Of a DNA stretch of 64,000 nt, positions 12,268 to 63,530 are shown one piece after another. The stretch spans positions 182,693-246,692 of the forward strand of contig CACPDB010000001.1 in the NCBI GenBank assembly GCA_902632605.1, given 5' to 3'. A program made the translations under genes and the position numbers. Origin of the DNA: an uncultured SAR86 cluster bacterium (lineage in GTDB: Bacteria; Pseudomonadota; Gammaproteobacteria; Magnimaribacterales; AG-339-G14). The stretch's first letter is position 1, and each line of letters begins with the position of its first letter. Under the pieces are notes generated by a model. That model was given only the letters and a program-made list of their open reading frames with translations. It did no database searches and was not told the origin of the DNA.

Positions 12268-12889
12268 TCTCCCAAGGGTGAGTTTCTTGTAGGATACGTT
12301 CTATTACTTTATCCCTTTGCTCATTGGGTATATCGACTACAACAATATTTTTAGCTAATTTTTCAAAAGCTTCTTTTTCCGATAAATCGCCGTCGACTAT
12401 TTGTTGAATTGCACCCATTGCTGCCCATTGCACATAATGGCGCGAAAGACGAAAGTCCATTAGATCCTCAATATCGGTATTTTTAATTTGTTTGGCTTTT
12501 ACAGCATTCAGAAAGGTATTTTCCATGTTTGGCTGAGTTATTTCTTTAAAGACTTGAACAACCATTTGGATATCGTCTAGTAACCAGTTAATTGAAGGGG
12601 AATTAGACAACAAATTCAAAGCTCTTAGTAAGGCCAAATAAATGATATACACATAATCTTTTTCGTTTATCACATTGAGTTTGAAGTCTATCAACATGTC
12701 TTTTACGGTTTTGCTCAAAGCTTCAAATTGAATGTCTTCAATGCTATCAAAGTGGTTGTAAAAAGTTCCATAACCTACATCGGCTATTTTAATGAGTTTT
12801 TTGACACTCATTTTCGCTTTACCTTCAGAATTTAAGTAGGTAATTGCGGCATCAACTAACTTTGCTTTGGTTTTACTCATTTCTGACAC
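12245..12889 (-). CDS. TetR/AcrR family transcriptional regulator
   Basis: N-terminal HTH: KLVDAAITYLNSEGKAKMSVKKLIKIADVGYGTFYNHFDS. Confidence 0.88.
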   Translation of the reverse strand: MSEMSKTKAKLVDAAITYLNSEGKAKMSVKKLIKIADVGYGTFYNHFDSIEDIQFEALSKTVKDMLIDFKLNVINEKDYVYIIYLALLRALNLLSNSPSINWLLDDIQMVVQVFKEITQPNMENTFLNAVKAKQIKNTDIEDLMDFRLSRHYVQWAAMGAIQQIVDGDLSEKEAFEKLAKNIVVVDIPNEQRDKVIERILQETHPWEITDNVDK

Positions 12890-12940
12890 AGTGTACAGAA
12901 AATATGACAGACATCACAGATTTTGCTTAAATAGCTACAT

Positions 12941-15900
12941 ATGAAGATAAAAATTAAATTTTTATCTCATCAAAGTACCAAAAACATCTTTATAAAACTT
13001 TTTGTCACCTTGGTGGGATTGTCTGCGGGACTCTTAGCCTATACCCAAGAGGAGATAGGTGTAGCTGCTGCAGTAAACACTACGACAACTGATAACTTTT
13101 ACGATCCTTCGGGGATGTTCGCTGAACGTCGTCTGGTTGATGAGGGTTATAAGATCATCCAAAACCGAACCATTGAAACCGATGAGAAAGGTAAGGCGCA
13201 AATGATTCTTATCGATGGAACTGCATTTACCATAGGTCCAAATTCCAAAGTTATTTTGGATAAATTTGTTTACAACCCTGAAACCAACGATGGTTTTCTA
13301 GAAATGCAAGCAACTGGCCTTTTAAGATTAGTCGGAGGAAAGGTCACCAAGAAAAATGCTGCAACCATTAATACCAGCGTTGCCACAGTTGGTATTCGAG
13401 GCGGTATTGTTATTGTTGATTCCGATGCTGAAACAACCTCAGCTGCTTTTGTCTATGGCCAGGAAATGGAAGTCATTCCATTAAACAACCAAGACGGGAG
13501 AACTCTTTTAACCGAAGATGGTTTTGTTGTTGAAGTAAATGACCCCTATGACGATATTGATACTCCTGAACTTTTAACTGCTGAAGCTTTAGCTAGTTAT
13601 TCGGCAAGTCTTGAAGGAAGTGAGGAAGAAGAAGAGGAATCAGAAAGCGAATCGGAAGACGAATCTGAAGAAGAGGAAGAAGAATCAGAAGAAGAGTCAG
13701 AAGAATCAGAAGAAGAGCCAGAAGAATCAGAAGAAGAATCAGAAGAAGAGTCAGAAGAGTCAGAAGAATCAGAAGAAGAGTCAGAAGAGTCAGAAGAAGA
13801 ATCTACAGAAGAAGAATCTACAGAAGAAGAATCTACAGAAGAAGAATCTACAGAAGAAGAATCTGCAGAAGAACAAAGTGAAGATTCTGGAGATGGCGAG
13901 TCAAGCGATGGTGATTCTGAAAGCGAATCATCAGATGAACAAGCACCCGCTGAAGATTCAGGATCTGATGATAGCGCTCAAGAGGATACTCCAGATTCTG
14001 AAAAATCAGAAGATGGTCCTGCTTTAGAAAAGGAAGAAGGTGAAACCGAACAACCTAGAAGTTCAGACACAACTTCAAGCGATGAAAGCACTACGCCGAT
14101 CGAAACTGAGGATGATAAACCTGCAGCTGATTCAGAAACACCTGATGTTGATAGACAAGAAGGTAGTGGTGAAGTTGATTTAAATAATGAGTTTAGTGAA
14201 GTATCGGAAAAAGAAGAGCCGGAAATTGTAATCGATGAAGACTCTCTTTTAACAGATTCAGGTATTTCAGATAATAGTTCCAATGTAGCTCCTGACCAAC
14301 TGACTACTTCTGATGATATTGGAGGTGAATTGGGAGCTAGCGATTTATTTGAAGTTGAACAAGAAGAAGAGGAGCCGGCAGAAGAGACTGCCGATGAGGT
14401 TCAAGACACCACTTCAGAAACTGTGCAACAAGAAGCTATTGAAGAAAAAATGTCAGCTAACGTATCTGTCCGAGCGGATTCATTTATTGAAAGTTCTCCA
14501 AAAAATACTTTAGTAGCTACTACTGCAGTTGAAGGACAAGGCATGACTTATGCTTTGGAAGATGACTTTGGAGTGTTTAAGGTAAATCGCCGAGGAAAAA
14601 TCAAAACCAAAGATTTCTTAGACTTTGAAACCAATGAAAAATATGATTTGGTGCTCTTGGTCACTAATAAGAGGGGTGAAACCATAAGAGTTCCTTTCAC
14701 GATCAATATAGCCGATGTTTCTGAATTGTCTGCTACATCGTCGGTTAGAGCAACAAATTATCATGAAGGAACAACTTCTGTTAATACGATTGTTGCAGAC
14801 ATTAATCCTGTCTCAGATGAGACGCCAAGTTATGAAATCACTGGTGAAGGTAAAGAGTATTTCCGAATCAACAAAAATGGAAAAATTAAACTGGACAAAG
14901 CTTTTGATTCCACTGACCGTAAAGTATTCAATTTAGTGGTAAAAGTTACTGCTGGAACAGAAACCGTTGATGTACCTTTAAAAATTGACGTTCTAGAAAA
15001 TATTGCACCTGATTTTACTACCGCCTGTCAAAGTTCTTGTTCTTTAGCTGAATCAGCAGCTACCGGAACAGTTGTGATAAATTCCTCCAGAACCGATACC
15101 GATATAGATGATCTGACTTATTCCTTGGAAAACAATTTCGGTAACAAATTTGCCATCAACCAAGACACCGGACAGGTAACTTTAAATAGCGCTTTGGATT
15201 ATGAGTCTACCAATTCATATACTCTAAATGTCATCGCTACCGATTCAAAAGGAATCACCAAGAACCGAAGTTCAACCTTTAATGTCACAGATGTAGCAGT
15301 GGGCTATAGCGGTACTTTGGCATCAGCCAGTAAGGCAGAAAACATCGCCACTGGCACAGTGATTTTGAATTCTTCTCTAAGCGGAAGTTTTAGCAATCCA
15401 ACTTATTCGCTATCAGGCGGTAATAATAAATTCGCTATAAATTCATCTACAGGACAGGTGACATTAGCTAATGCTTTAGATTATGAAACGGCAACTTCTC
15501 ATAGCTTTACGGTTACCGCTCAAGCAGGAGGCGAAACACAAAGTCAGAACTTTACTTTAAACGTATCTGATATCAACTTGGGTTTCAGCGGGAGCCTTGC
15601 TTCTGCTAGTAAAGCCGAAAACGTTGCTACCGGAACAGTAATTTTAAATTCTACGGTATCAAATTTTTCCAATCCAACTTATTCGCTATCAGGCGGTAAT
15701 AATAAATTCGCTATAAATTCATCTACAGGACAGGTGACATTAGCTAATGCTTTAGATTATGAAACGGCAACTTCTCATACTTTTACCGTGACTGCTGCAG
15801 CTGGAGGCGAAACACAAAGTCAGAACTTTACTTTAAACGTCGATAACATTACTTATACTGTTTCAGCTCCAGCTTCAACTACCAGCAGTTTTGTGAAAAA

Positions 15901-18900
15901 AGGGGAATTTTATAGAACCGGCTCCGCCAATTTCACTTATTTGATAGATGAAGATATTACGAGCAAAGGAGCTTCAGATAGGGTTATTGGTGATTTTTCA
16001 ACTGGCGTTGCGGGTACAACCTATAGTTTAGGCGGAACAAATCAAACTTATTTCAGTATAGATTCTTCAGGTATTTTGAGGATTGACGATTGTATGATGT
16101 GTGAAGCCACCATCAGAGTTAATGAAGAAGCAACCGGATCTAATCCGACCGTACCTGCACAAAATTTCATTTTAGATTTGGAAGTCATAGCCTCTATTCC
16201 AGGTGAAGGCAACGTAAGTAGCGGGAACTTTACATTAAAAGGTAAGAATGTTGAGGCCAACGAAAATCTGGTGATGAAATTTGCCAGTGGTTACAGCAGT
16301 AAGACTCACAATTTTCAGGGAGCTAATCCGTTTACTGCAATAGCTACTCGTAATTCCAGTGGAACTGGTGGCTTAAACAACGCAGTAGTCACTGAATCGG
16401 TTTTAACGGTAGCCGATCGAGTTAGCAGTCCGCATATAGCCTCAGCCAACGATGAGTTTTATACGCGCTATGGTCAAAATGGTGGTAAATCTTATTATCG
16501 AACTAGCACAAGATCTAACGGCGATAACGAACACGGTACCGAAATTTTGGATTTTGAATATTGGTTCCCAATTGATTCCAATGCCCACTCTGGAAACGTC
16601 ACTGCTCGACAGTATGCTCCTATGTCCGATTTAGCTGCTGCTTGGGATGACCGAAGACCCACTAGAGAAGAGGCTAAATATGCTTGCTTGGACTCCGGAC
16701 AAGGTTGTGGTGGTGGGACCACCGAAGTCGACATAAATGGAAATTGGACTTCTACCACAGAAGGTTCCAATTTTTCTGGTTATACAGTCACACAAAGAAA
16801 TTTTAGCCGATCTGTGGATAATCTTTTGAATGCCAACGCGAATGGTTCGTCCACAGGAAACGGAACAGGAACCAATACTCTTTTGGGTGAGTACAATCAA
16901 GGCTTTGGTGGGACTAACAATAATTACGTTTCAGAATTTGAAATCGTGGCTCTACCTGAAACTTTTAAGTATTTTGGCCAATCTTTTTCTCACATTTATG
17001 TAAATGAAAATGGATTTTTAACTTTCGGTAATGGTGGCGCTAATTCTAATAAACCATGGCACCAAGTAAATCTTTCGCAAGCGCCAGCTGCGCATAACGG
17101 TGGTGGTAGGCCTTTGATGTATTTGCATGAGTCGGGTTCCTATACCGCTATTAACGGCAACGGCAATACTTTTCCCGATGGCTATCAACTACCTGACGTT
17201 TATGGAAAACCTGGAACAACCCATGCAGATAATCTGGATAACACGATCTTTGCTCTCTGGAATGACTACTATACAGATAGTGTCAACAATAATTGGTCAA
17301 TACGTCAATTATGGAATAGTACGACAAAAATCCTTACCATTGGTTGGTACAACATCAGAAGTTATAGCCAGTCGAATAATAATGCGGAAGCCAACTTCGA
17401 AGTCCAGTTAGATTTCAATGACGACTCTTTCCGAATCGTTCATGGAGATTTTGGAAATAGTTTCCCGCATCAATCAGCAAATAATGCATTTGTTGGTATT
17501 TCTAAAGACGTCTCTTGTGCAACAAATGGTGAAGACATTTCCATGTGTGAGGGAAAAGATTACATCCAGCTTTATTTTCACGATAACCATTTTGGCAAAT
17601 ATGAAAGCCCATCGCCTCAATATGATACTTTTCAAAATCCGGATGGAAATAATACGCCCAGTAGCATCGACCATATGTGGAACTCCTATTTTACCAATTC
17701 TCAAACTGTTAATGGGACAAAATATTGTTATTCCACTGACTTAAACTTAAGTTCAACCTCTTGTGCCAGCTCTTATAATCAAAATCAAGCCAAGGCTGGT
17801 ACTCATTTTAGTTTTGTTCCTCAAGGTACGGGCGGAGTAAAAAATGTTCTTCTGCCTTCGGACATTAAACAATCTTATCGTTCCGGTCGGATGGCAGAAT
17901 TCATGTGGATGCATTTGGATAAAGATCCAACCACTTTGGTTTACACGCCGCCAGCAAACAATGCAACCGGTTTTGATGCTGCAGGACCCAATTCTCGAGA
18001 CGGCGTAACCGGTGGCTCGCTGAGTGCAGGAAGTGCAATCACGCATACCACGGCACTTGATGAGATTGTCATTGCAGGGGAGGTTTACGCCAACAGAAAG
18101 CTAGAAAGTTTCTTAGGCAATGCCAAGAAGGTAGTTGCCTACGCACCCATTCCTTTGTTGCACACCAACAAATACGAATTGCCACAACTTACAACAAATC
18201 ACAGCTATGGTCCTTGGTACGATGATCGATACAAACGTGTCCACACCATTATGCCGCCCTTTATTTCCACCGATTATATGGAAAGCAAAGACAACGGTAC
18301 GGATGCCAATTTTGATTTCCACCAATTGAACGATAACAGTTATTTCAAAGGCAACATCCACGGTATTGTCTACAATACCATTGGTTCCACTTTTAATAAT
18401 CAGATTTGTTGCCACAATTGGCAAAACGAAAGTCGCCTTGACAGCATGTACGGTTATGCGGCTAAGGTATTGGATCACAATACGCATGTTTCCTCAGAAC
18501 GTTTTGGCGATTTAGCCAATAATGCTGATTTCGTGCCTATAGGACAGTCGCTTTGGTATCAAGTTTTCAACCCAACGGGTAGAGGCGTGGGACTTTTTGC
18601 TCAGCTCAATTGGAGTTGTGGGCAAGGCGGTGATAACCCCAATGCTTGTCACCATGGCATGCATGGCACAGAAACAACGGTTGCTCCGCACCATTCTCAA
18701 CAAAGTTTGTTTTCCGTCTTGATTGTAGACTCCGGTGACAAATCGAATTTTGCCAAGACTAATAACCCAGCAGGTTATTCGGCAGCATCCACTGGAACAG
18801 TCGTTGATGGTTCGCATTATTGGAGTTACAAACGTCGAGACGGAAGGACTGCGACAACCGATGGCGAATATGCGGGTGCAGAAAAAGCACCACAAATTGC

Positions 18901-20473
18901 TTTTGGTATCAACCCAATTGCTTGTGTTTCTGGACCTGATAACGGGTGTTTCTTTGGTGACAATCAAGGTGCGAATTCCAGTACGATTGGTGCGCCCTCA
19001 ACTGCAATCATTACCACCAGTGATCCTTGCAGCAGCACTTCAGCGCATAACTATACTAGGTGTTATCAGCCAAATTCATCCAACATGGAATTGGGTGTAA
19101 TGTACTCCATGGAAGCCAATAGCTCTGCAACCTTAGCGGATCAAAAATACAAAACTGAAACCTTTTATCAAGGTATAGCTCAGCAAAAACAATACGACGG
19201 TACTAACTATGTGGATGCCATAAATCTAAACGGTTCCAACAGTTGGCGAACTGGAAACAATTCCACAGCGAATACTTGGACTGGAAGATTCTCAGGACAT
19301 TGGCTGACCGATGTTGCATCAAACCAAAAAAGCATGCCACAGTACTTTCGATCAGGTTTAACGGCTTCTTTTGATGAAACCAACGACCGAGTCAAAGTTA
19401 CTGCCACCAATATCTACATTCATGCCGATCCAGATTGGAATGAGAATACTAATGTAGGGGAAAACACTTGGTACCATTCAGAAACAGGCTGTAGTTTCGG
19501 CAATGTATCTTGGAGTGCTGGCAGTTGTGTTGCTGTACTTCCCACGAACAATGGCGCAATTGGAAATTCTGGATTCACTTTGCAATTCGGTGACGATGAT
19601 AATCAAAAAGATTCGGCAAATTTTGCTAACTCTGCTTACATCAATAAAAAAGTTTTCGGTGCCATGCTTAAAAATGAATCAAAAAATCTTAAGTGTGGTG
19701 CGCTTTGCTCTGTGAATCTTTTAGCAACAGCAAACGTTGATAATGCCGGGGCACTGGTTACTTGGGATACCATCGACGAGAAAGATAAAGACTGGATGAG
19801 TCCTTGTAATAACAACTACAGCCATAATTGTGCTGACCCTGAACCTTCTTTGGAATACATGACTTGGGGGGTTTGGGGCTTTGCTACTAATGACGGTCTT
19901 GAATACATGGCTGGCGAACAACCCAGTGCCGTGCACATGGGTACTTGGTATGCCGGTGATTTATTGGATGCCAGCGATTGGCCAGTCAGTAGAACTGCAA
20001 CTCTTGCCGGAATGGCAATGTTTAACATGTGGAAAAGCCAAACCGTAAGTGGCGTTACGACCAATTACGCTTGGACCGAAGGCTCCAGAGCAGATGGTTC
20101 TGTTGTCTTTGATGGTTCGGGAAATTATGGCGTAACCATTAATGTTCACGATCTCGGCCAAACCACTTGTGGTGCTGGCGGTGCTAGCGGATACCCTTGT
20201 AGTTCAGGTGCTGGTAGTTCCGCAAGTTCTTTCGATAACGGACAAAGGATGGGTACTATTACTTGGACGGCAACCAACACTAGTGGAAATCCCAACTTCA
20301 GTGGAGGAGATAGTACTGCTAGTGTTAGCAATGGGGTGAGTACTTGGAAATACATGCAAGGCAGTCTTTACGGTACTTCTTCGCACGTCGAAGCAGGCGC
20401 AGAGCTAATTTATTCCAAACAGGACGCGAACAATTATATTCAAGCGATTGGTACAGTCATTTTATCGGAGTAA
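12941..20473 (+). CDS. Giant exported protein A: signal peptide, FecR-like domain, Glu/Ser-rich linker, cadherin-like repeats, NIDO-like module, large conserved C-terminal region
   Basis: 2510 aa. FecR-like block DGTAFTIGPNSKVILDKF...VGGKVTKK...TSVATVGIRGGI. Cadherin-like KFAINQDTGQVTLNSALDYESTNSYTLNVIATDSKG. NIDO-like FKYFGQSFSHIYVNENGFLTFG. Co-linear with the gene at 20784-28163. Confidence 0.85.
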   Translation: MKIKIKFLSHQSTKNIFIKLFVTLVGLSAGLLAYTQEEIGVAAAVNTTTTDNFYDPSGMFAERRLVDEGYKIIQNRTIETDEKGKAQMILIDGTAFTIGPNSKVILDKFVYNPETNDGFLEMQATGLLRLVGGKVTKKNAATINTSVATVGIRGGIVIVDSDAETTSAAFVYGQEMEVIPLNNQDGRTLLTEDGFVVEVNDPYDDIDTPELLTAEALASYSASLEGSEEEEEESESESEDESEEEEEESEEESEESEEEPEESEEESEEESEESEESEEESEESEEESTEEESTEEESTEEESTEEESAEEQSEDSGDGESSDGDSESESSDEQAPAEDSGSDDSAQEDTPDSEKSEDGPALEKEEGETEQPRSSDTTSSDESTTPIETEDDKPAADSETPDVDRQEGSGEVDLNNEFSEVSEKEEPEIVIDEDSLLTDSGISDNSSNVAPDQLTTSDDIGGELGASDLFEVEQEEEEPAEETADEVQDTTSETVQQEAIEEKMSANVSVRADSFIESSPKNTLVATTAVEGQGMTYALEDDFGVFKVNRRGKIKTKDFLDFETNEKYDLVLLVTNKRGETIRVPFTINIADVSELSATSSVRATNYHEGTTSVNTIVADINPVSDETPSYEITGEGKEYFRINKNGKIKLDKAFDSTDRKVFNLVVKVTAGTETVDVPLKIDVLENIAPDFTTACQSSCSLAESAATGTVVINSSRTDTDIDDLTYSLENNFGNKFAINQDTGQVTLNSALDYESTNSYTLNVIATDSKGITKNRSSTFNVTDVAVGYSGTLASASKAENIATGTVILNSSLSGSFSNPTYSLSGGNNKFAINSSTGQVTLANALDYETATSHSFTVTAQAGGETQSQNFTLNVSDINLGFSGSLASASKAENVATGTVILNSTVSNFSNPTYSLSGGNNKFAINSSTGQVTLANALDYETATSHTFTVTAAAGGETQSQNFTLNVDNITYTVSAPASTTSSFVKKGEFYRTGSANFTYLIDEDITSKGASDRVIGDFSTGVAGTTYSLGGTNQTYFSIDSSGILRIDDCMMCEATIRVNEEATGSNPTVPAQNFILDLEVIASIPGEGNVSSGNFTLKGKNVEANENLVMKFASGYSSKTHNFQGANPFTAIATRNSSGTGGLNNAVVTESVLTVADRVSSPHIASANDEFYTRYGQNGGKSYYRTSTRSNGDNEHGTEILDFEYWFPIDSNAHSGNVTARQYAPMSDLAAAWDDRRPTREEAKYACLDSGQGCGGGTTEVDINGNWTSTTEGSNFSGYTVTQRNFSRSVDNLLNANANGSSTGNGTGTNTLLGEYNQGFGGTNNNYVSEFEIVALPETFKYFGQSFSHIYVNENGFLTFGNGGANSNKPWHQVNLSQAPAAHNGGGRPLMYLHESGSYTAINGNGNTFPDGYQLPDVYGKPGTTHADNLDNTIFALWNDYYTDSVNNNWSIRQLWNSTTKILTIGWYNIRSYSQSNNNAEANFEVQLDFNDDSFRIVHGDFGNSFPHQSANNAFVGISKDVSCATNGEDISMCEGKDYIQLYFHDNHFGKYESPSPQYDTFQNPDGNNTPSSIDHMWNSYFTNSQTVNGTKYCYSTDLNLSSTSCASSYNQNQAKAGTHFSFVPQGTGGVKNVLLPSDIKQSYRSGRMAEFMWMHLDKDPTTLVYTPPANNATGFDAAGPNSRDGVTGGSLSAGSAITHTTALDEIVIAGEVYANRKLESFLGNAKKVVAYAPIPLLHTNKYELPQLTTNHSYGPWYDDRYKRVHTIMPPFISTDYMESKDNGTDANFDFHQLNDNSYFKGNIHGIVYNTIGSTFNNQICCHNWQNESRLDSMYGYAAKVLDHNTHVSSERFGDLANNADFVPIGQSLWYQVFNPTGRGVGLFAQLNWSCGQGGDNPNACHHGMHGTETTVAPHHSQQSLFSVLIVDSGDKSNFAKTNNPAGYSAASTGTVVDGSHYWSYKRRDGRTATTDGEYAGAEKAPQIAFGINPIACVSGPDNGCFFGDNQGANSSTIGAPSTAIITTSDPCSSTSAHNYTRCYQPNSSNMELGVMYSMEANSSATLADQKYKTETFYQGIAQQKQYDGTNYVDAINLNGSNSWRTGNNSTANTWTGRFSGHWLTDVASNQKSMPQYFRSGLTASFDETNDRVKVTATNIYIHADPDWNENTNVGENTWYHSETGCSFGNVSWSAGSCVAVLPTNNGAIGNSGFTLQFGDDDNQKDSANFANSAYINKKVFGAMLKNESKNLKCGALCSVNLLATANVDNAGALVTWDTIDEKDKDWMSPCNNNYSHNCADPEPSLEYMTWGVWGFATNDGLEYMAGEQPSAVHMGTWYAGDLLDASDWPVSRTATLAGMAMFNMWKSQTVSGVTTNYAWTEGSRADGSVVFDGSGNYGVTINVHDLGQTTCGAGGASGYPCSSGAGSSASSFDNGQRMGTITWTATNTSGNPNFSGGDSTASVSNGVSTWKYMQGSLYGTSSHVEAGAELIYSKQDANNYIQAIGTVILSE
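13615..13880 (+). repeat. Low-complexity GAA/TCA-rich coding tract (Glu/Ser linker of giant A) incl. four perfect 15-bp repeats ATCTACAGAAGAAGA at 13801-13860
   Basis: Read directly; encodes EESTE repeats. Confidence 0.93.
15394..15840 (+). repeat. Intragenic tandem duplication (276-bp period) of a cadherin-like module; 110 bp identical at 15394-15503 vs 15670-15779, 38 bp identical at 15527-15564 vs 15803-15840
   Basis: Direct comparison of the two copies, same offset of 276 for both identical blocks. Confidence 0.9.
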
Positions 20474-20732
20474 TTATTGAATAGGGAGAAACAGAATTTG
20501 AATTGAGCATGAGAACGGAGATCAATAACCTTTCTTTTGGAACCTTCTTTGGTTCTTTGTTGTCTTTTTGGTACTTTGACAGCAGAAAGGCTATTCATCA
20601 CCCGATCTTGCTCGGCTGGGCTCGGTGGCTTCCACCGGGTTCAGTCCAAGTCATTGATTTTATTTGGAAAAAGCTGAGCAAAAAGATTGAAAAATGGGCA
20701 TATTTTGCTAATTTTCACCTTGGCTTTTTGCT

Positions 20733-20767
20733 AAAACCTCAAAAAATTCGGTTTTTTTGGGGTTTTT
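20733..20767 (+). terminator. Likely stem-loop/terminator between giant genes A and B
   Basis: AAAACCTCAAAAAA-ttcgg-TTTTTTGGGGTTTT (one G-U pair), overlapping the listed ORF start at 20757. Confidence 0.55.
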
Positions 20768-20783
20768 GGCGTTGGTTATTAGA

Positions 20784-23700
20784 ATGTATATGAGACAAAA
20801 ACATATGAATCTTTTGAAAACTGCACTGATTGCAGTGAGTTTCATCGTCTATCCGTTGTCTTATGCACAAGATGAAATTGGGGTGGCAGCAGCAGTAAAC
20901 ACCAAAACTATTGATATGGTGGCTTATCCCGGAGGCAGTATTGAAAACCGTAATATTGATCCTGGTTACAAGATCATCTCGAATAGAACTATCCAAACAA
21001 ATAAAAGTGGAAAAGCCCAAATGCTCCTAGTTGATGGAACTGCCTTTACTATTGGGCCAAATTCAACGGTAACTTTGGACAAATTTATCTACGATCCAGC
21101 AACAGCATCTGGAAGCTTGGAAGTTTCCGCTAAAGGTTTAGTCAGACTGGTTGGAGGAAAAGTAACCAAAAAAAGACCTGCAATTATTAAAACAAGCACA
21201 GCTACTGTTGGAATCAGGGGAGGAATTGCAATCGTTGAGGCAAGTCCGGAAGAAACCAAAGCATCATTTGTTTATGGAGTAGAAATGGAGGTTGCTCCAT
21301 TAGAAAATCCTGATAACAGTCTGGTTTTAACTCAAGTTGGATTAAGTGTAGAAGTTGAAGCTGGTTCCGATGAAGTTGAAGATCCTGAAGTTTTAACTTC
21401 AGAGGAATTAGATGATTACTCTGATGATTTTGAAGGAAACGAAGAGCCTGAAGATGAATCAGATTCTGAAGAATCAGAAAACGACTCATCAGAGTCTGAT
21501 GATGAATCTGAGACAAGTAATGATAGTGAGGACTCAGAAGAGGAGTCTGAAGAAAGTGAAGAATCGGAGGAGGATTCTGAAGAAACCGAAGAAACCGAAG
21601 AAAATGAAGAATCGGAAGAGGATTCTGAAGAAACCGAAGAAACCGAAGAAAATGAAGAATCGGAAGAAGATTCTGAAGAAACCGAAGAAACCGAAGAAAA
21701 TGAAGAATCGGAAGAAGAGTCTCAAGAAACTGAAGAAGCGGAAGAAACCGAAGAAATTGAAGAATCGGAAGAGGATTCTGAAGAAACCGAAGAATCTGAA
21801 GAATTAGAAGATACTGAAGAAACTGAAAATGAGGAAGTAGAAGAGGAAACTGAAAGCGAAAATGTGGATGATTCCGAAGAGACAAATGATTCATCGACTG
21901 AAGAAGACACATCCGAGACTGATGAAACTGATTCAAACCAATCATCAGATTCAGAAACTCAGGATGACGAAAATTCTTCAGATGCTTCAAATGATTCTCA
22001 AGAAGAAACTACACCCCAAGAATCTGCCGATACGGAAGACGAGCCATCAGACAATAATACTGCTGCAGAGACAACAAGTTCAGATGAAGATCCAACATCT
22101 AACGATAGTAGTGAAAAATCTGTTATTGATACAGATGATGATTCTCAAGAACAATCTTCTAACAACGTTGAATCAAATGATGGCGTAGCAAATGAAACCA
22201 CATCATCGGATACATCAGGAAATACTTCTGATAGTGACTCTGCAAACGATCAATTCTCAGAAGGTTCAGAAAGTGAGGTTGAAACTCAACCAACTTCAAA
22301 TAAAAATCAATCAACTCCAGATGTTCAGCGTCCAACAGCAACAAGTACGTCATCAAGCGATGAAGCTAGTCCTCCTATTCAACCGAATCAAGGTAGAGAA
22401 ATTAAAGATACTCCATTAACTAGACCAGCTGAAGAGCCTACAACTTCACCTAGTCAAGTGACAACAAGCACCTCTTCAGATCCTGTAACTGTGACACAGC
22501 CTGTAACTGCGACTTCTTCCTCGGATTCGGTTCCATTGGTACAACCCTCGACATCAACATCATCATCTGATTCAGTACCTTTGGTTCAACCGCCAACAAC
22601 CACGTCTTCTTCAGATTCTGTTCCGCTTATTCAACCAGCTGTAGCTACATCATCTACAGAAACAATAACGCTCGAACCTTTAACTCAAGAGACTGACCCT
22701 GTGATTCCTGAAATAGACGAAAGCTTATTGGATAATTTTGATATATCAAAAAATACTTCAGATACAGGTATTGATGATTTGACTACAGCCTATGATCAAG
22801 GAGGGGAGTTATTTTTTGATGATACGCAAATTGAAACTCAAGAAGAAGAATTCATAGAGGAAGCAACTGAAGCAAATGAGGAAGTGCAAATAGAAGAGGT
22901 ACAGCAAGAACAAAAAGTTGAAGTAGTAATCGAAGCTCAACTTTCTGCGAGTACTTCTTTCATCAAAAATGACATTGAAGAAGATTTGTCAATAGGATCA
23001 TCTTTAGGAAAAATTGACGTTAACTATACCGGTTCGGAAGAGCTGAGATTTGTTTTGGGAGGAAACGGTAGCGAAAATTTTGAAATTGACAATCAAGGAA
23101 ATATTATCTTAAAAAATAATTTAGATTATGAAGCTAGACAATCTTATGACTTATTGGTTTTTACCTTCCTTGGAGATAAATCAATTACTAACGATCTCAA
23201 ATTTAAAGTTGTTGATATTGATGAAGAACCAGTTGTAGATTTAAATTTATTAGTAAACTCTCTGGCAGAAAATACCGCAACAAGCTTTAAAATAGCTGAT
23301 ATCCAGATAGACGATCCAGAAAAAAATGGTATATCAACATCCATATCCGGTGTAGATAGCGCTAAAGTTTCCATTTCAAATTCCGGAGAAATAACACTAA
23401 AAGAATCTTTGGATTTTGAAACCAAAGAAAACTTAGAGTTTGTTGTTTCGGTATTTGATGGCAAAAATACCGTGGAAAAACCAATATCTATTCAAATTAG
23501 CAATATCAATGACTTAACAGCGAGCGTTAACTTATCAAGCAATCAATTACACGAAGGTGCAGACATTGATTCAACAGTCGCTAATATCAATGTTGTCGGC
23601 GACTCTACTCTCAAATACTCTATTTTAGGAACAGATAGTTCAGATTTTTCTGTGAGTTCGGATGGAAAAATTAAATTAGCAAAGACTTTAAGTTACAGCT

Positions 23701-26700
23701 CAAAAAATATTTACGATCTTAAACTCAAGGTAGAAGGCAGGAATGATAGCGTCGAGGTACCTTTTACGGTAATTATTAAGGAAAATGAAGCCCCAGTAAT
23801 TTCTCCTAATTGCTTAAATGGATGTAGCTTTGATGAATTAACTTCTATAGGAACAACGTTAGTAGAATCTTCCAGACAAGATAATGATGGCGATAGCATC
23901 TCTTATGGTCTAGTAAATGATTTTGGAGGAAAATTTTCAATTGATCAAAACACTGGAAAGGTTTCTTTATCCAATAAATTGGATTTTGAATCACAGAATT
24001 CATATACCCTTCAGGTTAGAGCTACAGATTCCAAGAATCTCACTGATACAAAATCAGTTTCGTTGTCAGTAGGTAATATTAACATTGCTCCTTCAGCTTC
24101 CTTTAACACAGACTCTGTCGCTGTGTCTAAAGTAAACAACATAATTCTTATCGAAGAGGATATTGATGAGATAAATGATAGTAATCAAAAAATTCTTCAA
24201 GCCAGTTCAAATTTTACTGATTCATCTTCAACTTTTTCTTTATCTGGACCCGATGCAAGTAAATTTGAAATCAATAATCTTGGCGAAGTAAGAGCAAAAG
24301 ATCTCTCAAATGCAAGTTCATCGGGAGGTATCGACGTTGAAGTCCAAAGAGCTTATAACATTACTGTTACCGAGTCTCGTCCAGATGAACCTGATGGAAC
24401 TCAAAACATAACTATGTTTTCTCAGAATGTAGAAGATGATGCGGCATCTGTAGCTCGATATTCAGGAGCTTTTAATAGCGACAGTAGAGTTAGATTTAAA
24501 GCTTCTGCTGATAGGGGCGTTATAGGAACTCAGGATAATAAAGCTTTTCGAGAGACCATTTTAAGTAAAGATGATTTAGCTCGAAACAACGGCGTTACAT
24601 CTGTTTCTTCCAAGGGGCACATGCGAGTCAACAGTGGCAAAATAGAAGTTTTCTCAAGCACCATAGAAAATGGCAATAGTGAAAATGATGTGACCTCTTC
24701 GGATTGGAAATATGAGTTTCCCATTGATACCGATAGCTCAGAAGAAAGTATAAACACTTATGCTCCAAATCATGACAAATTTAATGAAACAGCTTCTTTC
24801 TCTCCAATTGATAATGATCCAACTCAGAATATTATTGAGCGAGTAAACCAAGGAAATTACTACGAGGCAGGAGAGGGTATTCAAACTGTTCTTACACATA
24901 AACTAAATGTTTCTGGTAGCGGAAAAGTTACAAACTTACAATTGCCACAGAACTTTACTTATTACGGTGATACATTTACTCACATCAATGTCTCTGAAAA
25001 TGGCTATATAAAATTCTCTACAAATAGTTCTGTGGCCGATGATGTATCCGGTTGGCAACACGGAGTACCATTGATGTATCTTTTTGATGCAGCTGACTAC
25101 GATACAGCTAATGGGTGGCCAGATAGTTATCAAGTCCCAACACAGTATCGAGGATCAAATTTAAGCAATACTTTATTTCCAATTTGGTCATACTTTCGAG
25201 CAGAAGCCAATGAAAAAACCGATATAAGAACTTTATGGAACCCTACAACTAAAAATTATGTAATAGGATTTTATAATTTAAGCTCCACAGATCATGAGGA
25301 TAACAAAGTAAATGTGGAAGTTGTTTTAAACACAGTTTCAGGTGAAATTAAATTTATATACGGAGACTTTGGCTCAAATTTTCAAAAATTTGATAGTGGA
25401 AGTAATACCCTGATAGGGATTTCAGGAGATTTATCTCAGTCAGAATACACACAAATATATTATTGCGATCAAAACGAGGATTGTTCAAATTTTGGTGAAA
25501 ATGACGCAACTAGTACATTTGCGGACCACGCATCCAGAACTACCGATAGAGGTGTGATTAATAGTCTTTACAATTCATCTCTTTTTACAAATCATGGAGC
25601 AAAAAAAATAACCGACTTTTCAACATTAGTCTTTTCTCCTAATGGAGGGTCTGCATATAACTTTTCATATAATGATGTCACTTCAAATTCATTTTTAAAT
25701 GCAACAGATGACGGAAGTCTTTCTGGACCAACATTTACCAATTCTGAAATTACCTCTTCTGGTAGACAGGGGAATAATTTCAATTTTTTATGGATGAATT
25801 TAGATAAATCAGCGGTAAATATTTCCTATAGAGCCGCATCAGAATCAAATCCAGGAGGCTACAATAATAACTCTCCTAATTACAAGGACGGATCTTTTGG
25901 AACTGCTGACTATGCAAATGCGAGCTATAATTTGCTCGAAGACCAAATAACTATTGCTGGAATCCCATATTCAACCTCTGACTTTGAAAAACTCATAACC
26001 CAGTATGGTTCAAACTCAAAACGAGTTGTTGCTTTTGCACCAATACCTATTGAATACACATCTAAAAGGAAAAATCCTAATTTAGAAAGTCTTAGTTATA
26101 CAAATGATAAAGAGCATTTGAAATATTTCTTACCTCAATTTTTCTCTACGGATTATTTAGACCCCCAATTTGATGGAAGTGACAAACTATTCGATTTTGA
26201 TGTTCTGCAAGAAAATGATTATTGTCAGATTCCTAGTTCTCTCAATTGTACTTATGCAGTTAATGATTTAAAAAATAGAGATTTGCAAAGACCTAGCTCC
26301 AGCGTAAATGCTTCTTCAGCTTATAATGATAATTACAGCTGGGTTTCTATCGCTTTATCTGGCCAAGGCACTAATGAATTTATAAAAACTAATAGATTTT
26401 CTGGTTCAAATAATTATGTGCCCGAAGGTCAGTCTCTTTGGTATCAAGTATTTAAACCAACAGGAAAAGGCGTTGGTTTATTTGTCCAATTAAATTTTAA
26501 TTGTGAGAGCGGAGGTCCTTGTAGTTCTGCTAAACCTTCTTATTCAACTCAAAGTAGTTATTTATCTATTTTACTTAGCGATACAGACTCACGCTCCAAT
26601 ATGCCGGGATACTATATAGGAGATACCGGTTTGGCTATCTCTGGCTCACAATATTTCTCTTATCAAAGGAAGTCTTCAAGAAACATAACCAATGATGGAG

Positions 26701-28163
26701 AGCTTGCAGTTAAATTTGATACTCCTCAAATTGCTTTTGGCATCACTCCCATTAGTTGTGCCTCTACTGCAGATTATGGATGTTTTTGGGGGGAGAATAC
26801 CAGCTCAAGTAATTGGATAAGTCCCACAGGTGCAATGATAACTTCATCGGATCCTTATAGAGGAAGAAATGATAATGATTTAAGTGGAAACATGACATTG
26901 GGAGTGATGCATGCAATGTCAGAAAATAATTCTCAGCAACCTAATGCTAAAAACTATCAAGTTGGTACGTTCAATCAAGCAGTGGTAAAACAAAATCAAA
27001 TTGATACTTCTGGAGCAGTCGTAGATAGCATTTCTTTAGATAATGGCTCCAATAGCTGGAGAGGATCTGTTGTTTCTTCATCAGATTCATGGAATGGATT
27101 TCTAAATGGCTTTCTTAATATTGATGATGGATACACACAATCAATAGAAGGAGAGCTGCAAATTAGTTTTGATGGTTCTAATGATAGACTTAAGGCAGTT
27201 TCCAATGATATTCAATTTTACAAGCTACCTTTTTTAGGTTCATCTGGACAACAAAATACATGGTTTAGGACAGGTGCAAATTCCACTCTTTTACCAACCT
27301 CGTATGGAACTCAATCTGCACAAAATTTAGCTCCAAAATCAAAAGGGCATTTTGTTTTACAATTTGGAGACGATGAAATAAATAATAGCAATAATGATTT
27401 TGCTCGTTCTGCTTACATAAATAAAAAAGTATTTGCAGCATCACTAAAAGATGACAATAAAGTCATTCGTTTTGGAGAATCAAATTTACAAGACAATGTT
27501 ATTTCACAAACCACTTCAGATAAAGCGGGTGCACTTGTAAGCTGGGAAACTCTAGACAATCCTGATAAAGACTATATAAGCACTGGGACTAATATTCCCG
27601 AACTCGATTATATGAGTTGGGGATTTTGGGCAATGGCTACCAATGATATTGCAGATAACTTATACAATGGAAATTTCTCTGGGGCTGGAGAACAAACAGC
27701 TGCTGTTCATTTGGGTACTTGGTTAGCTGGAGACTTACTAGATCCAACTGACATGCCGGTTAATTATCAGGCAACAATGGTTGGTGCTGCTATATTCAAT
27801 GTTTTCACCAGATTAAATGATAGTTCATATAGCTATACAACGTCTGGAAAGGCAGAGGCTACTTTAGATTTTTCTAGTACCGGTTCTTGGAACGGAACTA
27901 TGGTAATTAGTGAGGCAGATAAATTTGGACCAGATGCATATAAAAATTGGTCAGCCTCTTTTAATTTAGGAAATAATTCTTCCAATAAATTCAATAAAGC
28001 TTTCACATGTGACTCCACTGGAGGAAGTTCGGTTTGCTCTGCATTAAGAGGAGCACTCTATGGTACCAAGTCAAATTTAGAAATGGGAACACAATTCATC
28101 TATTCCAAAGAATCTCAAGATTCAATTTATATGGCGGAAGGAATATCTGTGCTTTCTGATTAA
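20784..28163 (+). CDS. Giant exported protein B, paralog of A (FecR-like, acidic linker, Ser/Thr spacer, cadherin-like, NIDO-like, conserved C-terminal region)
   Basis: About 2459 aa from ATG 20784 (signal peptide MNLLKTALIAVSFIVYPLSYAQ). Shared motifs with A: DEIGVAAAVNT, DGTAFTIGPNS, RLVGGKVTKK, ATVGIRGGI, SLWYQVF(N/K)PTG(R/K)GVGLF(A/V)QLN. Confidence 0.85.
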   Translation: MYMRQKHMNLLKTALIAVSFIVYPLSYAQDEIGVAAAVNTKTIDMVAYPGGSIENRNIDPGYKIISNRTIQTNKSGKAQMLLVDGTAFTIGPNSTVTLDKFIYDPATASGSLEVSAKGLVRLVGGKVTKKRPAIIKTSTATVGIRGGIAIVEASPEETKASFVYGVEMEVAPLENPDNSLVLTQVGLSVEVEAGSDEVEDPEVLTSEELDDYSDDFEGNEEPEDESDSEESENDSSESDDESETSNDSEDSEEESEESEESEEDSEETEETEENEESEEDSEETEETEENEESEEDSEETEETEENEESEEESQETEEAEETEEIEESEEDSEETEESEELEDTEETENEEVEEETESENVDDSEETNDSSTEEDTSETDETDSNQSSDSETQDDENSSDASNDSQEETTPQESADTEDEPSDNNTAAETTSSDEDPTSNDSSEKSVIDTDDDSQEQSSNNVESNDGVANETTSSDTSGNTSDSDSANDQFSEGSESEVETQPTSNKNQSTPDVQRPTATSTSSSDEASPPIQPNQGREIKDTPLTRPAEEPTTSPSQVTTSTSSDPVTVTQPVTATSSSDSVPLVQPSTSTSSSDSVPLVQPPTTTSSSDSVPLIQPAVATSSTETITLEPLTQETDPVIPEIDESLLDNFDISKNTSDTGIDDLTTAYDQGGELFFDDTQIETQEEEFIEEATEANEEVQIEEVQQEQKVEVVIEAQLSASTSFIKNDIEEDLSIGSSLGKIDVNYTGSEELRFVLGGNGSENFEIDNQGNIILKNNLDYEARQSYDLLVFTFLGDKSITNDLKFKVVDIDEEPVVDLNLLVNSLAENTATSFKIADIQIDDPEKNGISTSISGVDSAKVSISNSGEITLKESLDFETKENLEFVVSVFDGKNTVEKPISIQISNINDLTASVNLSSNQLHEGADIDSTVANINVVGDSTLKYSILGTDSSDFSVSSDGKIKLAKTLSYSSKNIYDLKLKVEGRNDSVEVPFTVIIKENEAPVISPNCLNGCSFDELTSIGTTLVESSRQDNDGDSISYGLVNDFGGKFSIDQNTGKVSLSNKLDFESQNSYTLQVRATDSKNLTDTKSVSLSVGNINIAPSASFNTDSVAVSKVNNIILIEEDIDEINDSNQKILQASSNFTDSSSTFSLSGPDASKFEINNLGEVRAKDLSNASSSGGIDVEVQRAYNITVTESRPDEPDGTQNITMFSQNVEDDAASVARYSGAFNSDSRVRFKASADRGVIGTQDNKAFRETILSKDDLARNNGVTSVSSKGHMRVNSGKIEVFSSTIENGNSENDVTSSDWKYEFPIDTDSSEESINTYAPNHDKFNETASFSPIDNDPTQNIIERVNQGNYYEAGEGIQTVLTHKLNVSGSGKVTNLQLPQNFTYYGDTFTHINVSENGYIKFSTNSSVADDVSGWQHGVPLMYLFDAADYDTANGWPDSYQVPTQYRGSNLSNTLFPIWSYFRAEANEKTDIRTLWNPTTKNYVIGFYNLSSTDHEDNKVNVEVVLNTVSGEIKFIYGDFGSNFQKFDSGSNTLIGISGDLSQSEYTQIYYCDQNEDCSNFGENDATSTFADHASRTTDRGVINSLYNSSLFTNHGAKKITDFSTLVFSPNGGSAYNFSYNDVTSNSFLNATDDGSLSGPTFTNSEITSSGRQGNNFNFLWMNLDKSAVNISYRAASESNPGGYNNNSPNYKDGSFGTADYANASYNLLEDQITIAGIPYSTSDFEKLITQYGSNSKRVVAFAPIPIEYTSKRKNPNLESLSYTNDKEHLKYFLPQFFSTDYLDPQFDGSDKLFDFDVLQENDYCQIPSSLNCTYAVNDLKNRDLQRPSSSVNASSAYNDNYSWVSIALSGQGTNEFIKTNRFSGSNNYVPEGQSLWYQVFKPTGKGVGLFVQLNFNCESGGPCSSAKPSYSTQSSYLSILLSDTDSRSNMPGYYIGDTGLAISGSQYFSYQRKSSRNITNDGELAVKFDTPQIAFGITPISCASTADYGCFWGENTSSSNWISPTGAMITSSDPYRGRNDNDLSGNMTLGVMHAMSENNSQQPNAKNYQVGTFNQAVVKQNQIDTSGAVVDSISLDNGSNSWRGSVVSSSDSWNGFLNGFLNIDDGYTQSIEGELQISFDGSNDRLKAVSNDIQFYKLPFLGSSGQQNTWFRTGANSTLLPTSYGTQSAQNLAPKSKGHFVLQFGDDEINNSNNDFARSAYINKKVFAASLKDDNKVIRFGESNLQDNVISQTTSDKAGALVSWETLDNPDKDYISTGTNIPELDYMSWGFWAMATNDIADNLYNGNFSGAGEQTAAVHLGTWLAGDLLDPTDMPVNYQATMVGAAIFNVFTRLNDSSYSYTTSGKAEATLDFSSTGSWNGTMVISEADKFGPDAYKNWSASFNLGNNSSNKFNKAFTCDSTGGSSVCSALRGALYGTKSNLEMGTQFIYSKESQDSIYMAEGISVLSD
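21561..21704 (+). repeat. 48-bp near-perfect tandem repeat, 3 copies plus degenerate continuation (encodes ESEEDSEETEETEENE)
   Basis: Copies at 21561-21608, 21609-21656, 21657-21704 differ only at a few GAG/GAA-type positions; diverged copy follows from 21705. Confidence 0.93.
22512..22690 (+). repeat. 45-bp degenerate coding repeats (TSSSDSVPLVQPSTS, about 3-4 copies)
   Basis: Protein-level repeats TSSSDSVPLVQPSTS / TSSSDSVPLVQPPTT / TSSSDSVPLIQPAVA / TSSTETITLEPL. Confidence 0.85.
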
Positions 28164-28207: not shown

Positions 28208-28969
28208 ATGAATAGATTCATAGATTTTTTCTTATCTATTAGGGATAGTAAGTTTTTTACCGGTCTTGTGATTGCAGTAATTGTTGCTTCAGCAATCTAT
28301 GCCGGAGCAAGCTCTTATAATATTCCTGCTGAATATATTCTAATATTGGATTACTTTGATTACGCTATAACGGTCTTCTTCTTAATAGAAATTCTGATAC
28401 GTATTTTTGCCGAAGTTAATCACCCAATTCGTTTTTTTAAAAATGGTTGGAATATTTTTGATTTAATTATTGTATTAGTAAGTCTAGTTCCTGTTGACGG
28501 AGCGGAAAGTGCTTTTGTTGCTCGTTTGCTGAGAATAGTTAGAGTACTTAGAATAATTACAGTCGTTCCTGCTTTTCGTCATATTGTTGAGTCCCTATTC
28601 AAATCAATGCCTCGTGTAGCTTTTATTGCTTTATTAATGTTCATCGTCATATATATTTGGGCTGCTATTGGTACCTTAATTTTCAGTGAAACCGATCCTG
28701 AGCACTGGCGTAATATTGGAATTGCAGCTCTGACACTAGCTCAGGTTGCAACATATGATGACTGGGCTGCCATAATGAGCAACGTCTTTGAAGTACACCC
28801 TTATTCTTGGATTTATTTTATAAGTTTCATTTTGGTTACCTCAGTAGTACTACTCAATATGGTTATAGGTATTATTGTGGATGTCATGAGTCGCGATGCC
28901 AGAGAAAATCTCTTTGATAATATCGATGCTAATGATCACATGGTGACTAAAGAAAACGAAGGTTTATGA
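28208..28969 (+). CDS. Bacterial voltage-gated ion channel (BacNaV-like, 6TM) with filter TYDDWA
   Basis: S4 RLLRIVRVLRIITVVPAFRHIV; pore LAQVATYDDWAAIM aligns to NaChBac/NavAb LFQVVTLESWA; S6 VLLNMVIGIIVDVMSR. Confidence 0.9.
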   Translation: MNRFIDFFLSIRDSKFFTGLVIAVIVASAIYAGASSYNIPAEYILILDYFDYAITVFFLIEILIRIFAEVNHPIRFFKNGWNIFDLIIVLVSLVPVDGAESAFVARLLRIVRVLRIITVVPAFRHIVESLFKSMPRVAFIALLMFIVIYIWAAIGTLIFSETDPEHWRNIGIAALTLAQVATYDDWAAIMSNVFEVHPYSWIYFISFILVTSVVLLNMVIGIIVDVMSRDARENLFDNIDANDHMVTKENEGL

Positions 28970-57728: not shown

Positions 57729-58583
57729 ATGGTATTTGACTACTTAAAGGGTATCAATTTAGAAAGATACAAAAGTTACTTGAATGAGAAAAATCTTAAA
57801 TTCTCTATTTCTGGTGCACTTTTATTAGTTTTTTCTTTAGAGTTTTCCTCGATATTACTCGGTTTGATTTTTAATAACCAATTAAGTTCAAATAACTTTA
57901 ACAACTCTTTTGCATCTAGTGATGCTCCTAGAATCATAGACAATCCATTTTCATCTGATGTTGAAATTGATGGGCTATCTATCTATGAAAGTCTTGTTAA
58001 AGCTCCTGAAACTTCATTATCTTTGAAACTTTACGGTGTTACTTCTTCTGATGAAGTTAAATCGGCAATAATTGGCTTCAATCAAAACGATCAAAAAACT
58101 TATCTCGTGGGAGATATGATTTCCGATAATGTTTACTTGGATTCAATTAACAAAGATTTTGTCACCATCAAGCGTTCTGGCATAACCGAAAGCTTGTCCT
58201 TTTTTAAGGGCTCAGTAATTAAGGGAATGGAAAGAGTTGTTCAGGGCAATACCTCTATAAAAATTGTATCTCAGCAAAAACCCACCATCAGCAAAGAGTG
58301 GATTGAAAATCAGGAAATTGCGAAGTTAATAACTTTTGCTCCTGTTTTTGATGATGGAACTTTTTCCGGTCTTGAAATAAGTCCAGGGGAGAGTACTGCG
58401 CTTTTTGATTCTTCGGAATTGAGACCTGGGGACATTGTGAAGTCCATCAATGGACTTTCCGTTGCAGAAATTGACCTCTCTGATCAAGATTCAATTAATT
58501 CTTTTTTCTCTGACTTGGCATCGCTTAACCTCGATTTAGTTAGAGACGATCAAGTTGTATCCGTCGATATAAACATTAACTAA
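57729..58583 (+). CDS. gspC: Type II secretion protein GspC
   Basis: Single N-terminal TM, HR-like domain (LKLYGVTSSDEVKSAIIG...YLVGDMI), C-terminal PDZ-like; directly upstream of gspD. Confidence 0.82.
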   Translation: MVFDYLKGINLERYKSYLNEKNLKFSISGALLLVFSLEFSSILLGLIFNNQLSSNNFNNSFASSDAPRIIDNPFSSDVEIDGLSIYESLVKAPETSLSLKLYGVTSSDEVKSAIIGFNQNDQKTYLVGDMISDNVYLDSINKDFVTIKRSGITESLSFFKGSVIKGMERVVQGNTSIKIVSQQKPTISKEWIENQEIAKLITFAPVFDDGTFSGLEISPGESTALFDSSELRPGDIVKSINGLSVAEIDLSDQDSINSFFSDLASLNLDLVRDDQVVSVDININ

Positions 58584-58596
58584 ACCAAAAAAAATT

Positions 58597-60513
58597 ATGA
58601 TTTATTCAATTTATAAGAATTGTTGCGCCTATGCGCTTATTTTTGGACTTTCGTCTAGCTTATGGTCTGTGACGATCAATATGCGAGATGCAGACATTAA
58701 ATCCTTTGTCTCAGATATTTCATCTTTGACGGGTAAGTCTTTTGTCGTAGATCCAAGAGTAAAGGCAAACGTAACTGTTATTTCAAGAGATGATTTAACG
58801 ATCGAAGAAGCTTATGAAATTTTTCTTTCAGTTCTCAGTGTTCATGGTTTTACCGCAGTTGAACAAGCAAATGCAGTCAAAATAGTTCCTGCCTCAATGG
58901 GTAGGCAAAGCTTTACTGAAGTATCAAAACCCGTTTCACCTGAAGATGCATTGGTTTCGACCATTATTAGACCGAGTCAAACATCTGCAAATGCTTTGAT
59001 TCCTTTAATAAGGCCACTCATAAATTCTCAGGGACACATTGCCGTCTATGCGCCAAGTAACAGTTTGATACTTACCGATAGAAATGCCAATGTTAAAAGA
59101 ATAAGACAGCTTGTCGATGAGCTGGATAAAAACCCTGCCGATGTTTATGAAATCGTTAAATTGAAAAACTCTTCTTCCACTCAAATTTCTAAATTGATTG
59201 ATAAAGTTTTTTCGGAAAACTCTGGCGGCATGGCACAAAATGATTTTAATGCTTATGCAATCGAAAGGAGCAACAGCGTTTTACTCTTTGGTGATCAAGA
59301 AATTGTAGAGCGAATGAAGGCCGTCGTTATCAAGCTGGATGTAAAAGATCAAGGTACAAGTTCCCTAAAGGTAGTTTATTTAAAATATGCTGACGCCACT
59401 GCCCTGGTTGAAATTCTTAATAAGATGACACCAAATATTGATGAAAAAAGTTCAAACAAAGGAAATACTTCCATTACAGCTCATGAAGAAACAAATTCAC
59501 TCATAATTTCAGCCGAGCCAGATGTAATGACTTCCTTAACTGGAATAATCAGTCAGCTTGATATTAGAAGAGCACAAGTACTAGTTGAGGCCATCATTGT
59601 CGAGATTTCAGATCAGCTTTCAAAAGACTTAGGTTTCCAATTTCTATTTGGCGGCGAAGGATCTAATTCACCGATTGCATCTCAAAGATTTGGTAATCCA
59701 ACGCCTGATCTTTCAGCTCTTGTTGGTGGATTAACCCCTGGTGGAAGCACTACTGCTGTCTTATCAACCTTATTGAGTTTAGATGGTTTTGCAACCGGTG
59801 TTGGTAAGTATAAAAAAGGAGGTGACAGCTTTGCGGCGATTCTGAACGTGCTTGCAAAAAATAGCGACTCAAATGTACTTTCAACTCCCTCAATATTGAC
59901 TATGGATAACGAAGAGTCATCCATTATTGTCGGTCAAGAGATTCCGATTACCACTGGAGAATCTTTAGGAACTAATAACTCAAATCCTTTTAGAACAGTT
60001 ACGCGTCAAGAAATTGGAATAAAATTAAGTGTTAAACCTCAAATTAATGAAGGTAATTCAATCAAACTGGATATTGAACAGGAAGTTTCCTCTTTGTCTG
60101 GACCAATTTCTGCAGGTTCATCAGAAATTGTTACCAATAAAAGAGCTATCGAAACCGTCGTTATGGTTGAAGATAACCAAACTATTGTATTGGGAGGGTT
60201 GATCGATGATGACATCCAAGAGTCAATAAGAAAGGTTCCTTTACTAGGTGATATACCAGTTATCGGTAAAGCTTTTCGTCAGGAGCAAACCACCATTAGT
60301 AAGAAAAATTTAGTAGTATTCCTTAAACCAACAATCATCAGAACCTCTCAAGATATGAAAGCTTTGACAAATACAAAGTATGACTTCTTGAGAGCTCAAG
60401 AAATGCTTAGAAGCAAAAAAGGAAAAACTTCTCCTGACTTAGACTTACTTGAAAAATTAATTTTTGATGCTGAGGAGGAAAATAAACCAAAAATCGAGGA
60501 AGAAGAAGTTTAA
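58597..60513 (+). CDS. gspD: Type II secretion secretin GspD
   Basis: N-domains (VNVTVISRDDLTIEEAYEIFLSVL-like), secretin core VLVEAIIVEISDQLSKDLGFQF, VPLLGDIPVIGKAFRQ. Confidence 0.95.
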   Translation: MIYSIYKNCCAYALIFGLSSSLWSVTINMRDADIKSFVSDISSLTGKSFVVDPRVKANVTVISRDDLTIEEAYEIFLSVLSVHGFTAVEQANAVKIVPASMGRQSFTEVSKPVSPEDALVSTIIRPSQTSANALIPLIRPLINSQGHIAVYAPSNSLILTDRNANVKRIRQLVDELDKNPADVYEIVKLKNSSSTQISKLIDKVFSENSGGMAQNDFNAYAIERSNSVLLFGDQEIVERMKAVVIKLDVKDQGTSSLKVVYLKYADATALVEILNKMTPNIDEKSSNKGNTSITAHEETNSLIISAEPDVMTSLTGIISQLDIRRAQVLVEAIIVEISDQLSKDLGFQFLFGGEGSNSPIASQRFGNPTPDLSALVGGLTPGGSTTAVLSTLLSLDGFATGVGKYKKGGDSFAAILNVLAKNSDSNVLSTPSILTMDNEESSIIVGQEIPITTGESLGTNNSNPFRTVTRQEIGIKLSVKPQINEGNSIKLDIEQEVSSLSGPISAGSSEIVTNKRAIETVVMVEDNQTIVLGGLIDDDIQESIRKVPLLGDIPVIGKAFRQEQTTISKKNLVVFLKPTIIRTSQDMKALTNTKYDFLRAQEMLRSKKGKTSPDLDLLEKLIFDAEEENKPKIEEEEV

Positions 60514-60515
60514 AG

Positions 60516-61883: not shown

Positions 61884-61885
61884 TA

Positions 61886-63091: not shown

Positions 63092-63095
63092 TACT

Positions 63096-63530
63096 ATGAA
63101 AAAAATCGTTTCAAAAAAGTTATCAGGTTTCAGCTTGATAGAAATTCTTGTGGTACTAATGATCATTGGCTTGTTAACTGCTGTTGTTGCCATCAATGTA
63201 CTCCCTAGCCAAGATAGAGCTAGAGCAGATAAAGCATTGGCCGACATAAGAATTTATGAACAAGCTTTGGAACTTTATCGATTGGACATGTTTTCTTATC
63301 CGACCAGCGATGAAGGCTTACAAGCTCTTACTCAAGCTCCTGCAAACCATCGTTTTAAAAATAGATATCGCCAAGGTGGCTACATCAGAAAACTAGAAAC
63401 AGATCCTTGGGGCAATGAGTATCAATACAAAAGACCCGGAGATAATGGACCGTTTGATTTATTTTCTTATGGCGCCGATGGTCAGCAAGGAGGCGAGGGC
63501 ATGGACCGAGATATAGGCAATTGGGAATAA
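63096..63530 (+). CDS. gspG: Type II secretion major pseudopilin GspG
   Basis: SGFSLIEILVVLMIIGLL prepilin N-terminus; SDEGLQALTQAP, DPWGNEYQYKRPG, SYGADGQQGGEG. Confidence 0.96.
   Translation: MKKIVSKKLSGFSLIEILVVLMIIGLLTAVVAINVLPSQDRARADKALADIRIYEQALELYRLDMFSYPTSDEGLQALTQAPANHRFKNRYRQGGYIRKLETDPWGNEYQYKRPGDNGPFDLFSYGADGQQGGEGMDRDIGNWE

Follow-up and report, generated by a model that had tools for sequence, protein, structure and literature searches.

The window analysed here, a 64,000-nucleotide stretch of an uncultured SAR86 genome (1.2 Mb, 92.6% complete), carries on its forward strand two giant genes that are co-directional neighbours, encoding protein A (2510 aa, 12941..20473) and protein B (2468 aa, 20757..28163). 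As an earlier note on this DNA had described, the tandem pair is real, each reading frame running uninterrupted from start to stop. Since the listed start codon of B is TTG, its real start may be an ATG some 10-17 codons further in. By inspection both proteins have a signal peptide, that of A (aa 1-36, 12941..13048) probably being of type I, with no visible lipobox cysteine. Next comes a FecR domain (PF04773), matched by Pfam at 13169..13453 in A (E-value 9.7e-6) and 20988..21272 in B (1.3e-7), then an acidic linker of approximate limits, Glu/Ser-rich in A (13613..14491; 35% Glu, 18% Ser) and Glu/Ser/Thr-rich in B (21429..22943; 25% Glu, 18% Ser), and then cadherin modules (PF00028), again with approximate limits, in five stretches of A (14468..15940; 2.2e-43) and four of B (22974..24431; 2.4e-27). 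The architecture of B is that of A, with 54% identity over the first ~226 residues and about 29-36% over the long shared region that includes the C-terminus. FecR heads, cadherin modules, acidic linkers and a common C-terminal region had all been read from the letters alone, and each is borne out. A NIDO-like module, also claimed for both giants, is not: Pfam returns no NIDO domain at E<=1 in A or B and none at E<=0.1 in four relatives, and the structure model has low confidence over the supposed NIDO part of A. NCBIfam has no match to either protein. The gene after B (28208..28969, forward strand) encodes a 253-aa Ion_trans channel with a TYDDW pore-like motif, and an Ion_trans gene comes after the giant gene in most relatives with flank sequence. 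In the stretch between A and B, Rfam gave four weak matches, all far under their gathering scores. Promoter and terminator scans found sites no commoner than in shuffled sequence.

With the C-terminal 1358 aa of A as query, 25 of 61 relatives (those with names being chiefly SAR86 single-cell genomes and MAGs) have a match; these belong to four genera, the window's own among them. Scanning genome contigs yielded 72 loci with giants, mainly in SAR86, with others in Woeseiaceae and two alphaproteobacterial MAGs, and the giants were found again in independent SAR86 and Woeseiaceae assemblies. Because several SAR86 genomes of independent assembly also have such adjacent pairs, the pair is not an assembly artefact, a possibility that the earlier note had raised. 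In AH-321-K11 (L073, the contig of G015) A and the first copy share 98% identity over the C-terminal region; for B and its best partner there the value is 30%. Contigs with a giant gene also occur in MAGs assigned to Opitutia, Flavobacteriales, Euryarchaeota, Flammeovirgaceae and Cryomorphaceae (L085, L086, L087, L101, L131-L133); we suspect these contigs to be misbinned SAR86 or Woeseiaceae sequence. At L044 and L089 (G003) the giant matches are broken over several frames with internal stops, reflecting decay or read errors. Two loci (L034, 4799-7948; L041, 1119-4244) carry a gene of 1042-1050 aa that converges on the gene for a shorter FecR protein of 1224 aa; Pfam finds nothing at E<=0.1 in the L034 copy of the former.

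The C-terminal half of A bears on how such proteins might leave the cell. The model of residues 1361-2510 has a mean pLDDT of 61, low over the first ~350 residues and better over much of the remainder. It covers the conserved C-terminal ~700 aa (18371..20470), and eight strands are predicted in the last ~160 residues (19991..20467), a candidate T11SS-type barrel. In Foldseek searches against the PDB the best 20 matches of this model are TbpB structures (best E 4.2e-6) and the C-terminal domain of NHBA (rank 15, TMt 0.54). fHbp, HpuA, hemophilin and HphA appear with weaker E-values amid unrelated proteins, and global TM-scores against full TbpB are low, at 0.17-0.26 by target. At the level of sequence, B has a weak match to TbpB_B_D (PF01298; 27744..28115, 14.3 bits against a cut-off of 26), FHBP_C matches weakly in L141 and L144, PDB sequence searches with the C-terminus gave a chance-level match for B alone and none for profile A2, and when profiles of SAR86 C-termini were set against FecR proteins from elsewhere in the Gammaproteobacteria the alignment was weak, at 38 columns. 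As modelled, the C-terminal half of A would adopt a TbpB-like fold finishing in an eight-stranded barrel. In T11SS cargo, according to two surveys, N-termini vary and a shared C-terminal barrel targets secretion (PMC12282271, PMC8406197). Since the cargo share this barrel under varied N-termini, the C-terminus common to A and B would tell more of export than of the ligand.

A candidate exporter is found beside the giants of other genomes. In many SAR86 loci the giant lies directly downstream of a gene for a 440-460 aa protein with TPRs and a barrel, referred to here as the gate; of 19 loci in which the spacing was taken, 16 have the giant's first ATG at -13 to +32 bp from the stop codon of the gate and 3 have it at 285-289 bp, with earlier alternative start codons present at some of them. 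Slams consist of TPRs and a predicted 14-stranded barrel, and their substrates share an eight-stranded barrel (PMC5449769). The gate model from L140 (pLDDT 80) has 14 strands and helices of a TPR-like kind; the PDB entries that it matches best are CymA, BcsC, PelBC and OmpG, and a Slam structure is absent from the best 50. Pfam finds SlipAM (PF04575) in 6/19 members of the gate family (best 6e-7), the cut-off of 22 being passed by L141 and L118 (23.8 bits), and TPR_Slam in 5/19.

HMM scans of all loci recover a recurrent order, with DUF481 and a CHASE2-cyclase on one strand and, on the opposite strand, the gate, one or two giants and Ion_trans in succession. At L070 Ion_trans, gate, cyclase and DUF481 occupy one site, where no giant was matched. 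Whereas the gate gene adjoins the giant in many relatives, it does not do so in the window's own genome. The window's genus keeps giants and Ion_trans together and has gate, cyclase and DUF481 elsewhere (L067, G000:C4); in the window's genome a separate contig carries gate and cyclase, next to a cyclic-nucleotide-gated K+ channel. The gate copy there, of the 446 aa family, has an altered TPR stretch; a PF04575 search of this genome gave no match, and the controls were equally silent. The TPR region of this gene (L067, 8144-9484) holds an 82-bp stretch that occurs unchanged in its divergent neighbour, the CHASE2-cyclase gene, and the same comparison in eight relatives found at most 16 bp shared; the stretch reflects either gene conversion or an assembly or amplification chimera. 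At the same locus a gene for an MscS-type mechanosensitive channel (12471-13568) lies between DUF481 and the cNMP-binding channel.

The CHASE2 protein of the window's genome combines PF05226 (1.4e-48) with a class III cyclase domain, PF00211 (5.9e-23). By eye it retains the DIRGF, DKYMGD and GDAVNLASR motifs, of a type that an active adenylate cyclase should have. A single protein, encoded about 3 kb away from the CHASE2 match, unites an Ion_trans/Ion_trans_2 channel, a TVGYGD filter and a cNMP-binding domain (PF00027). PF00211 and PF00027 have one match each in this genome, making these the sole class III cyclase and the sole cNMP-binding protein detected. CHASE2 and PF00027 matches occur together in 22 genomes, and in every one no more than about 4 kb separates them. 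Of the 61 relatives, 20 have giant, gate and CHASE2 together and 35 lack all three (Fisher p about 1e-11 to 1e-13, uncorrected for kinship), and genus g8 is split, with the three together in G040 and G049 and none of them in G043, G046 and G055. In 25 gammaproteobacterial genomes, selected for CHASE2 matches from a class-wide search, SlipAM has FecR within 2 kb in 13/18 cases (0.09 expected from spacing), and FecR has CHASE2 within 5 kb in 17/64 (0.56 expected likewise).

The reading that we favour, to which we give a probability of roughly 0.6, is that A and B are surface cargo of a T11SS-like kind, with a FecR head in the periplasm that signals to the cyclase. A and B would be exported by Sec and placed on the surface in the manner of Slam/T11SS substrates, the TbpB-like C-terminus with its eight-stranded barrel serving as the export part that the TPR and 14-stranded-barrel gate recognises. 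The cadherin modules would extend outside the cell, the acidic linker may traverse the gate, and the FecR head would remain in the periplasm and touch the CHASE2 domain of the membrane adenylate cyclase. Either binding or tension on the outside would in turn alter cAMP and so open the cyclic-nucleotide-gated K+ channel. Both export and signalling are read here from structure models, from the order of the genes and from their co-occurrence. That the Slam-like gate exports the giants is likely, and the arrangement of the genes and their joint occurrence support a coupling of giant and cyclase. Topology, the FecR-CHASE2 contact, the direction of signalling and the nature of whatever is bound outside are inferred, and of all the steps output through the channel is the most speculative. 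A bolder proposal is a whole circuit from the surface to the membrane potential, in which a gate-exported giant receptor drives the one class III cyclase detected and the resulting cAMP acts on the one cNMP-binding protein detected, the K+ channel; the Ion_trans gene beside the receptor would supply a second channel. This wider scheme is tentative and would more probably fail than hold.

It is possible, though unlikely, that the giants are simply passive adhesins exported by type II secretion and that cyclase, gate and channels are chance neighbours or have another role. Genes gspC, D, E, F and G do lie in the same window (57729-63530), and cadherin modules are common in adhesins. However, gate and giant follow one another as near-touching genes at many loci, giant, gate and CHASE2 have almost the same pattern of occurrence across relatives, and the C-terminus resembles Slam cargo. 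Capture of iron or haem, by a TbpB-like binding protein whose FecR head is tied to iron regulation, is a more doubtful proposition still. FecR is named for iron signalling, and the top fold matches are to TbpB, with HpuA and hemophilins more weakly. However, the annotated neighbours include neither a TonB-dependent receptor nor a sigma factor, and the shared C-terminus, judged against the T11SS surveys, points to export more than to ligand (PMC12282271, PMC8406197). Least probable is that the giants are large proteins of the periplasm, or associated with peptidoglycan, and are never exposed at the surface, the FecR domain working in the periplasm as in the LysM-FecR proteins known from FecR-CHASE2 operons in Burkholderia (PMC5192318), since Pfam finds no LysM in A or B and both the cadherin arrays and the Slam-cargo-like C-terminus speak against it.

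With a C-terminus like that of Slam/T11SS cargo, a gate upstream in many relatives, and cyclase and channels in association, the earlier description of a candidate undescribed surface system in a streamlined marine cell stands. Its basis, that the proteins are large, conserved and exported-looking, is retained, and its open range of surface functions narrows to a putative sensor or adhesin with a Slam-like export gate and cAMP signalling through a CHASE2-cyclase and channels. Predation and phage interaction, also suggested there, neither gain nor lose support from these results. If the surface-cargo reading is true, an abundant uncultured ocean group gains a defined means of sensing surfaces or ligands, T11SS-type export is widened to giant FecR-headed cargo, and bacteria have a compact cAMP-to-ion-channel pathway of few parts. 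Literature searches on SAR86 surface proteins, and on CHASE2 with cyclic-nucleotide-gated channels, gave nothing relevant among the matches listed.

Several known systems resemble parts of this arrangement. The PF04773 domain of A and B is that of FecR in FecIRA, but here it heads a giant exported-looking protein, and the annotated neighbours include no FecA-type receptor and no sigma factor. The earlier remark that no FecI-type sigma factor is nearby agrees with these annotations, and as far as the neighbours show FecR would not be part of a FecI regulator here. The BiofilmReg operon of Burkholderia likewise sets a FecR protein beside a CHASE2 receptor, but there a CHASE2 histidine kinase is paired with LysM-FecR and here a cyclase with a giant cadherin protein (PMC5192318). 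In Campylobacterota, CHASE2-cyclase, FecR and TPR genes are clustered, the same three gene kinds as in SAR86, but the available text of that study mentions a phosphodiesterase and is silent on any Slam-like gate, giant cargo or ion channel (PMC9239204). The arrangement also resembles T11SS (Slam/DUF560) with TbpB-type cargo: the gate here has TPRs and a 14-stranded barrel, the cargo ends in a predicted eight-stranded barrel, and gate and cargo genes adjoin in many cases (PMC5449769, PMC8406197). FecR, CHASE2 and adenylate are absent from the main texts of the two surveys (PMC12282271, PMC8406197). Unlike T11SS, most of the gate members here fall under the PF04575 cut-off or have no match, and the cargo, mostly about 2,000-2,700 aa long, carries a FecR head and cadherins.
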